Positions 4,762 to 7,503 of a stretch of 64,000 bases of DNA are shown here, in pieces. The position numbers and the translations under genes are program-made. Each line of letters starts with the position of its first letter. Position 1 is the stretch's first letter. This DNA is from Halodesulfurarchaeum sp. HSR-GB. Lineage in GTDB: Archaea > Halobacteriota > Halobacteria > Halobacteriales > Halobacteriaceae. The notes below the pieces were generated by a model. The model worked only from the letters and a program-made list of their open reading frames with translations, made no database searches and was not told the DNA's origin. Where the stretch lies: positions 1,355,421 to 1,419,420 of the forward strand of contig NZ_JAVKGN010000001.1 of the NCBI RefSeq assembly GCF_031432215.1. The letters run 5' to 3'.

Positions 4762-5979
4762 ATGCGACGAACAGATCTCTTCGTTCCAACCTCGAAGGAG
4801 GCCGAATCGAGCGCCCAGGTCCGGAGCGCCGAACTCGCGCTCCGGAGTGGCCTCGTCGATCACCCCGGTGCGGGCATCTTCAGTTACTCCCCGACCGGCG
4901 AGCGTGTGCGCAAGAACATCTCCGATATCATCCGGGAGAAAATGAACGAGATCGGGGCTCAGGAGGTCTCCCTCCCCGGGCTCCAGTACGCCGATATCTG
5001 GCGGAAGAGCGGCCGGTGGGAGGAATTCGAGGGCGAGATGTTCACCTTCCAGAATCGGGAGGGCAAGGACATGTGCCTGGCGACCACCCACGAGGAACCC
5101 ATGGCCGGTCTCGTCCGCGAACGGGTCCGATCCCCGAAGAACATGCCGCTGGTCCTCTACCAGATCGGCGAGAAGTACCGGGACGACCACCCGCGAAACG
5201 GGCTGCTTCGGGCCAAGCAGTTCACTATGAAAGACGCCTACTCCTTCACCACGGACGAGGCGGCCCTGGACGAGATCTATCAGGAGATGCGGGCGGCCTA
5301 CATCGAGATCTTCGACGAACTGGGTGTGGAGTACGCCATCGTGGACGCCGACCCGAGTTCGATGGGCGGCACCGCCTCCGAGGAGTTCCAGGCCCCCGCC
5401 GAAGTCGGCTCCGACGAGATGGCCTACTGCCCGGCCCCGGACTGTCACTTCGGGACGCTGGATTTCGATGTCGATGCGTGCCCCGAGTGTGGAACCGACC
5501 TCGTCGAGACCAACTCGATCGAACTGGGCCACATCTTCAAGCTCGGGACCCGGTACAGCGACCCGATGGACCTGACCTACGACACCGAGTCCGGCCAGGA
5601 AGAGGTCATCATGGGCTCCTACGGGATCGGGGTCAGCCGGCTGATTCCCGCCCTCATCGAACAGCGAAACGACGAGAACGGCATCATCTGGCCTGAATCG
5701 GTCGCGCCGTTCTCCCTGAGTGTGGTTCCGCTCAACGAGGATCCCGAAATCATCGAGATGGCCGAGGAGATCCACGACCGTGTGGGCTCCGAGGAGGTCC
5801 TGCTCTTCGATGGCGACACCGCGATCGGCGAGAAGTTCGCCGAATCAGATTTGATCGGGGTCCCCGCGAAGGTGATCCTGGGGAACACCTTCCTCGAAGA
5901 CGGCGAACTCGAAGTCGAGTTCCGTGACGGCGGCCGCGAGTACTACGAACCGGCGGACTTCTTCGAAACCTACGCTTGA
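4762..5979 (+). CDS. proS: prolyl-tRNA synthetase, bacterial type, no editing insert
   Basis: Charges tRNA-Pro with proline. The 405-residue sequence follows bacterial-type ProRS: N-terminal MRRTDLFVPTSKEAES, class II motif 2 (RDDHPRNGLLRAKQFTMKDA) and motif 3 (MGSYGIGVSRLIPALIEQ). The roughly 180-residue INS editing domain of typical bacterial enzymes is absent; in its place is a short four-cysteine stretch (CPAPDC, then CPEC) that could bind zinc. Most haloarchaea use the archaeal/eukaryal type, so this looks acquired. The ATG at 4762 matches the family start. The TGA stop is made by the right end of the IS inserted at 5976; without it the ending would be GCG TAA, coding for the same last residue. 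Confidence 0.9.
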   Translation: MRRTDLFVPTSKEAESSAQVRSAELALRSGLVDHPGAGIFSYSPTGERVRKNISDIIREKMNEIGAQEVSLPGLQYADIWRKSGRWEEFEGEMFTFQNREGKDMCLATTHEEPMAGLVRERVRSPKNMPLVLYQIGEKYRDDHPRNGLLRAKQFTMKDAYSFTTDEAALDEIYQEMRAAYIEIFDELGVEYAIVDADPSSMGGTASEEFQAPAEVGSDEMAYCPAPDCHFGTLDFDVDACPECGTDLVETNSIELGHIFKLGTRYSDPMDLTYDTESGQEEVIMGSYGIGVSRLIPALIEQRNDENGIIWPESVAPFSLSVVPLNEDPEIIEMAEEIHDRVGSEEVLLFDGDTAIGEKFAESDLIGVPAKVILGNTFLEDGELEVEFRDGGREYYEPADFFETYA

Positions 5980-7503
5980 CATCCTGCCCGCCCTGAAGGG
6001 CGAGGATTCCTCGCGTTGGAGTCTCAGTCGTCCTGAGTCTCCACGGAGGCAACTTTCCCACTCGGCGTGGTACTCCGGTCTGTGTAGTCCTCGTTGGCCG
6101 TTGTCTCCACCGCGATGGAGGGCGGGCCATGATGTTCCCGCCATTCGTGATTGTTCCACTTGAGGTACACGGGCCGTGCCATCGGCCCAACCGCATTCGT
6201 CTGCCGTCTCAGGAACGATTCCGATGCCACGAGGTCAGCGTGCCCCTCGAATCCACACGGGCACGTCAACGAATCCTCGTGGCGAATCGTCTCTTCGCGT
6301 TCTCCACATTCGGGGCACTCCTGACTTGTCCACGCCTCGGACTCCTCCTCGACCACAATACCGTACTCCTCACACACGCTTTCGAGGCGGTTGATGAATC
6401 GGCGGTACGCCCAGAAGTTGTGCGTCTTCTCGTTCACAACTGGAGACCAGTGCGTCGAGAGAACGCCCTTGATGTCGCCAACGTACAGCGTCGAAACGCC
6501 CTCGTCATACAGGCGTTCCACGAGGTCTCGAACGAGGGCGTCTTGGGCATGGTCGCGTCGGTTCGTGCGTTTCTGGTACAAGCGGTCGATGCGCTTGCTA
6601 GTCTTCTTCTGGTCTTCGAGTCGCGACTGGAAGTACGCAATTCGCTCCGTGATGTTACGGAACTCCCCGAACAGGTCGCGCCCCTCGTACAGGAGTTGTT
6701 TGCCGGTCGATACCGTGCAGGCGACGAGGTTGTTCGCGCCCACATCCAGAGCGGCTGAATGGTCAGCCAGTGGTGAATCCAGTCGAGACTCGTTTATGGT
6801 GACTGGTTGGAAAGCCCTGAACGTGTCTGCGAGTTCGTCGTACACGAGTTCGAGTCGGCCTTGCTCGCCGCTCCACTTCGGGTCGCCAGCAATTTCAACG
6901 CGAAGGCGTTGATTCCGATTCAACCCGAGTTCGTCTTTGAGTTCGGAACCAATCGGTACTTCGAGGCGAGAGCGTTCTCCGTACTCGATGGTGTACTGGT
7001 CGTTGCGGACGTAGGTGCGGAGTATGCGCCCGTCTTCTTCGTTGCCCCAGTATCCCGGCGGCGATGGTTTCTCATCGAGTTTGCCGGCGTGGTACTTCTC
7101 GTTACTACTGAAAAACGAACGCCACGCTTCCGAGTTTTTGCGGATGATTTGCTGGGCGACACTACTGCTGAGAACGCCTTTGTATTTGCCTTCGAGTTTG
7201 CCGGTGTCGGCATCCCAGACGCTTTCGTCGTTTTCGAGGAATGCTTGGCGACGAGCGTAGTTTGTCTCGTTCCAGAGACTCGCAGAAGCGTCCAACCAGC
7301 GTTTGAACCCCTCACGCTCTTTAGCAGAGCGAGGGCGAACGTCGAACTGGTTGGCTCGCTTCATCACCACATTCTACGAAATGTTTGTTTGTAAAGGTAT
7401 GGATTGGCTTGGAAGACTCGGCCCTGCCATCATCGATTGATTGTGGAGTGCTTCGTCGGATTCATCCCCGCCCTAAAGGGCGGGGCTTTCTCCTTGATTC
7501 TCC
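5976..7503 (-). mobile_element. IS200/IS605-type (IS608-like ends) tnpB-only element 1
   Basis: On the minus strand the left flank is TTAC (complement of 7504-7507). The left hairpin is CCCCGCCCTTTAGGGCGGGG (plus 7466-7485) with guide AAAG beside it. The right hairpin (plus 5987-6005, TTCA loop) has guide GAAT (plus 6006-6009), and the right end is TCAA (plus 5976-5979). These are the cleavage and guide signals of IS608. There is no tnpA, so any movement would need a transposase in trans. The empty site reads proS ...TAC GCG TAA, so the element landed in the proS stop codon. Confidence 0.85.
6024..7364 (-). CDS. tnpB: TnpB-like RNA-guided nuclease, variant RuvC-II
   Basis: IS1341-type TnpB of 446 residues. 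Visible: Ruv[10 protein letters not shown] (Asp near 207), RuvC-II YVGDIKG (the usual VED glutamate is Gly here), zinc ribbon CPEC/CPC (Cys 350, 353, 368, 370) and RuvC-III HADLVAS. A conserved VNEKTHNFW follows RuvC-II. A tail of about 60 residues after GPMARP is shared with the other two VGD-type copies in the window. TnpB proteins cut DNA guided by an omega RNA from the element's right end and help the element persist. Upstream in-frame GTG codons at 7370 and 7367 are alternative starts; an AT-rich patch about 30 bases upstream suits a leaderless start. Confidence 0.85.

Follow-up and report, generated by a model that had tools for sequence, protein, structure and literature searches.

TnpB elements that insert next to TTAC and end in TCAA very probably persist at G|TAA stops of host genes because the element brings a stop codon that replaces the original one. 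The guide of such an element is necessarily antisense to the gene end and, if used, would cut empty alleles. The proposed course of events is as follows: two IS608-like elements, here called elements 1 and 3, would each have entered a convergent gene, proS in one case and a toxin gene in the other, from its antisense strand and precisely at the stop. One stop would be swapped for another, with no change to the protein beyond its final residue. The tnpB transcript would be processed into an omega-RNA whose guide is antisense to the 3'-terminal codons of the gene, where we infer both the transcription and the guide length. This guide may direct TnpB to the empty, TTAC-bearing allele, presumably for cleavage, and spare the occupied, TCAA-bearing one. 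The antisense overlap with the proS and toxin mRNAs would simply follow from the positions at which insertions do no harm and persist. Stop exchange offers a simple, testable rule for harmless entry into genes, even into a probably essential one, and allows the guide content of TnpB elements to be predicted.

The window, i.e. the whole stretch of 64,000 nucleotides that was analysed, is haloarchaeal DNA of 62% GC from a genome of 2.25 Mb in three contigs (Table 1). Elements 1 and 3 belong to the IS605/IS1341-type TnpB elements, flanked by TTAC on the left and ending in TCAA on the right. Each contains the stop codon of its host gene, proS or the toxin gene, a point on which the earlier note was silent. 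The complement of TTAC is GTAA and that of TCAA is TTGA; the exchange rule accordingly reads NNG|TAA in the reconstructed empty allele and NNT|TGA in the occupied one. In proS, GCG TAA becomes GCT TGA and Ala is retained; in the toxin gene, TGG TAA becomes TGT TGA and Trp changes to Cys. The empty alleles are reconstructions: an empty proS or toxin allele is absent from the material of this species examined, and none was found for proS in the genus, in which the site of one congener (G001) is filled by another element and the incomplete assembly of a second (G002) holds no good match.

Table 1. Positions of the elements, their predicted RNAs and the adjoining host genes in the window
Feature	Position	Strand	Basis or remark
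proS, short family-II prolyl-tRNA synthetase	4762..5979	+	TIGR00409, 407 bits (cut-off 307)
Predicted guide of element 1, ~20 nt, antisense to last proS codons	5956..5975	-	Sequence
TCAA right cleavage site, element 1	5976..5979 (5979-5976)	-	Sequence; + strand TTGA gives proS stop TGA 5977-5979
Element 1, TnpB-only, IS605/IS1341-type	5976..7503	-	Ends read directly; in congener G001, the same host flanks enclose another element
Predicted omega-RNA scaffold of element 1, including right-end hairpin	5980..6112	-	Conserved up to TCAA
tnpB of element 1, 448 aa, guided_TnpB family, relocated RuvC glutamate	6024..7370	-	PF01385, PF07282 and NF040570 above cut-off
TTAC kept at left flank of element 1, expected TAM of empty allele	7504..7507 (7507-7504)	-	Sequence
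Element 2, intact relative of element 3	8312..9897	+	Sequence comparison; possible TnpB source in trans
Element 3, TnpB element, tnpB split by nested element	27431..30369	+	TTAC 27427-27430, TCAA 30366-30369
Nested TnpB element within element 3 tnpB	28383..29735	-	TTAC flank, right end TCAC; boundaries via element 2 comparison; NF040570, 286 bits
ParE/RelE-type toxin gene, 85 aa	30366..30623	-	PF05016, 30.8 bits (cut-off 23); stop TGA 30368-30366 from element 3
Predicted guide of element 3, antisense to last codons of toxin gene	30370..30389	+	Sequence; unique in genome, adjoins TCAA

The closest well-studied counterpart is IS608 (ISHp608) of the IS200/IS605 family, which likewise keeps TTAC on the left, ends in TCAA on the right and combines subterminal hairpins with tnpB; elements 1 and 3 differ from it by the lack of tnpA and by the relocated glutamate of the haloarchaeal TnpB. 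Because IS608 is cleaved at TTAC and TCAA (PMC5934647), stop-codon exchange should extend to the entire TTAC/TCAA IS608 group. The elements themselves are of a kind already known. The exchange and its frequency are undescribed as far as the searched papers show, which exclude most subscription papers: no description was found there for TnpB/IS605 elements, including IS608. IStrons (PMC4227781) also insert without harm to the host gene, but they use RNA splicing, whereas the elements described here use stop-codon exchange.

The exchange recurs across haloarchaea. Element-1-like right ends were collected from 80 loci of public haloarchaeal genomes, from a scan of 391 genomes and from fetched regions, and removal of near-duplicate flanks left 139 distinct insertions; coding frames were assigned by codon bias, with 415 long ORFs of the same DNA as the training set. 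A pattern search for relatives ending in TCAT or TCAC gave no matches. Exact insertions at the stop of a convergent gene account for 25 of the 139, i.e. ~18%, as compared to 77 of 2167 background TTAC sites (OR 6.0, Fisher p=3e-10). Where the flank is coding in antisense, the insertion lies in the stop frame in 25/29 cases, against 77/298 for background sites. With a stricter gene threshold, the split between stop frame and other frames is 22 to 0 versus 61 to 169 in the background; the result is stable across thresholds, and an earlier, smaller test gave the same picture. These counts are conservative because genes of low GC, the toxin gene among them, escape the gene caller. The genes at stop sites are varied: Pus10, GlmU-like, Orc1/Cdc6 and PCNA-like proteins, all with domains that look complete, as well as regulators and transporters. 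The two host genes compared with their orthologues, Pus10 and GlmU-like, have the same end point as these or differ from it by a few codons. The change of the last codon is mild (silent in 12/25, Glu to Asp in 10/25 and Gln to His in 3/25).

Enrichment at stop codons may reflect tolerance or targeting. Stop sites are occupied 4.3-fold more often than all noncoding TTAC sites, but the noncoding class includes missed genes. With DNA lying 0-25 or 25-50 bp beyond the ends of convergent genes as the reference, the ORs are 1.6 and 0.9, both non-significant; the OR of 8.9 against DNA 50-100 bp past gene ends is probably due, at least in part, to uncalled genes. Active targeting of stop codons was thus rejected: the excess is lost against the first 50 bp past gene ends, which fits tolerance. 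In the simplest reading, insertions within genes are purged by selection, and those at stops and just past them survive.

ProS is a short family-II (bacterial-type) enzyme and the only ProRS detected in this genome. A second, archaeal-type ProRS that would make proS dispensable was considered and rejected; proS is probably essential because no match to the archaeal-type family (TIGR00408) passes the cut-off in this genome, and the description of proS as an essential enzyme in the earlier note is therefore reasonable. The short family-II enzyme is apparently the sole ProRS of this haloarchaeal genome; similar genes occur in only a few of the 31 genomes searched.

In G001, a TnpB element sits at exactly this proS stop, and the host sequences at its two junctions are the same as those of element 1, which fixes the host boundaries in the absence of an empty allele. 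ProS is 99% identical between the two genomes and the flanking DNA about 93%; the TnpB of the G001 element and that of element 1 are only about 24% identical, and the presence of a different element indicates independent use of one stop codon. The G001 element has moved recently: a flavin oxidoreductase gene carries another copy of it at its stop codon, and the two copies agree at every base over about 1460 nt. The sharing of the site between congeners is suggestive of a hot spot, although it is no proof of one, and the independent use of the site, somewhat above pure chance, counts against the proposed mechanism. A possible, clearly less probable reading is that the proS stop is a preferred site: the upstream TCGGA would pair with the left-end sequence following the hairpin, TnpA would favour the site, and homing by TnpB may add to the effect. 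The left-end sequence in question is AATCCGA in element 1, to which TCGGATT is complementary, and AAGCCGA in the congener. Different TnpB families on the same TTAC in this genome (G000) and G001 fit such a preference, as does the finding that extra pairing of this type, when engineered, improved the target specificity of IS608 (PMC5934647). Across ATCC-type left ends, the mean number of flank matches is raised (2.13 vs 1.61 of 6; p about 0.01, one-sided), but AGCC-type ends display no significant mean effect (p 0.11), and the run-length signal is weak, with several tests tried. A genome has ~4000 TTAC sites (extrapolated) and 10-15 TnpB loci; on the assumption that about a thousand of the sites tolerate insertion, the estimated chance that element 1 shares its site is roughly 1%. 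The signal for extended pairing at the left flank is weak. The left flanks of elements 1 (7497-7511) and 3 (27421-27434) both read CGGATTAC, complementary to the AATCCG after the left-end hairpin.

Insertion at G|TAA makes the guide antisense to the gene end automatically. The flank beyond the TCAA of element 1 reads GCGTAGGTTTCGAAGAAGTCC from 5975 downwards and is the antisense of the final proS codons; the right flank of element 3 reads CAGTCTTGGTCGTAGATG from 30370 and is the antisense of the toxin gene end. The guide length is that of the TnpB literature. The earlier note had placed the guides to the right of elements 1 and 3, antisense to the ends of proS and a relE-type gene; this position is correct to the base, and the identity of the latter as a ParE/RelE toxin gene holds. 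Its proposal that the empty allele is the target also agrees with the genome: for either element, TTAC plus guide has one match within 3 mismatches, namely its own right flank, in which TCAA replaces the TTAC that would adjoin the guide match in the empty allele, and a second TTAC-flanked match of either guide (<=3 mismatches) is absent from the genome. A single, TCAA-flanked match is what a retention model needs, in which the empty allele alone is targeted; IS605-family TnpBs have been described as agents of retention and gene drive (PMC10278001; PMC11870625).

The right end of element 1 has the properties expected of an omega-RNA, i.e. a conserved, structured scaffold up to the element end followed by a variable guide. 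Conservation among close relatives ends exactly at TCAA, and the last 133 nt have a consensus fold in which 6 of 27 pairs are changed on both sides with pairing kept; the stability of the single-sequence fold is modest (z = -1.88). A right-end hairpin is also expected as the single-stranded DNA site for TnpA, so the hairpin alone is no proof of an RNA. Rfam returned no omega-RNA family match in the window, its only matches lying elsewhere: a tRNA at 31652-31723 and an S15-Halobacteria ribosomal protein leader (RF03143) at 31817-31877. TnpB cuts the omega-RNA from its own mRNA (PMC10278001), and omega-RNAs are documented at haloarchaeal tnpB 3' ends, one circular form holding part of the predicted guide (PMC12558985). 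The IS1341-type elements of Halobacterium salinarum with their sotRNA/omega-RNA are likewise TnpB-only, with the omega-RNA overlapping the tnpB 3' end; the relation of the guide to convergent stop codons is not discussed in that study (PMC12558985). Some TnpB elements carry extra nested stem-loops in their right-end hairpins (loci L297, in G001:C1 near 442830-443939, L299, L304 and L308); that of L297 comprises 56 nt and is missing from the otherwise identical copy at proS.

Two readings assign the guides a larger part. In the first, which appears doubtful, stop-codon exchange makes the conserved 3' ends of core genes a refuge in which unrelated TnpB elements settle time and again; the guides, fixed on these gene ends, would promote transfer to empty alleles of that gene in other strains and possibly tune its mRNA. 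In the second, which is improbable, the omega-RNAs control proS and the toxin gene as cis-antisense RNAs, and this effect keeps them in position. Convergent transcription would indeed overlap, the predicted guide matches the antisense of each mRNA 3' end without mismatch, and haloarchaea are rich in omega-RNAs and antisense RNAs (PMC12558985, PMC10134880). However, the affected genes are functionally unrelated, and a regulatory role is not needed because the geometry of insertion imposes the antisense relation and stop sites are filled no more than the DNA 0-50 bp past gene ends. The best reading is that the antisense guide is incidental. An apparent antisense regulator may arise from insertion chemistry and selection, which calls for care in reading omega-RNAs as regulators.

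Element 1 has tnpB as its sole gene. Its TnpB contains OrfB/RuvC and Cas12f-like TNB domains scoring over curated cut-offs, and by motif the RuvC triad comprises the D of DVG, an E at an alternative position and a D after the zinc finger. At the canonical RuvC-II position, elements 1 and 3 have VGD for VED and hence no glutamate; in element 1, the glutamate is relocated to six residues before the zinc finger, and the resulting E-x6-C motif occurs in 71/72 relatives. Active E-alt TnpBs with a relocated glutamate have been described, and they and the Fanzors have it at the same position, six residues before the zinc finger (PMC10711439); RuvC-I is DPG in Fanzors as opposed to DVG in element 1. 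The relocated glutamate indicates that the element 1 TnpB is probably a nuclease rather than a dead regulator. It is most unlikely that these TnpBs are catalytically dead, TldR-like repressors guided to gene ends: the replaced canonical glutamate would suit that role, but the loss of catalytic residues that defines it is not found, the glutamate being present, in element 1 and 71/72 relatives, at the alternative position of active enzymes, and the occupied allele is without the TTAC motif.

Further traits of IS200/IS605 elements are insertion 3' of TTAC with TCAA as right end in elements 1, 2 and 3, and subterminal hairpins on the left and right; 60 left ends with TTAC were found by a search that itself required TTAC. 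None of elements 1-3 contains a gene for the Y1 transposase TnpA, only tnpB, as in the IS1341-type subgroup. Mobility of elements 1 and 3 would consequently need TnpA in trans. Many relatives have an overlapping upstream ORF that is a putative tnpA.

Element 3 cannot supply an intact TnpB of its own because the nested insertion splits its tnpB. The two parts are 86% and 80% identical to the TnpB of element 2, and the right ends of elements 2 and 3 are nearly identical; a supply of TnpB in trans from element 2 is plausible. Element 2 (8312-9897; also loci L289-L291) does not end on a stop codon and adjoins the remnant of a gene present in G001, so its right flank marks a deletion and not a clean insertion. 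The nested element has the canonical RuvC glutamate, and its predicted guide would be antisense to the tnpB of element 3.
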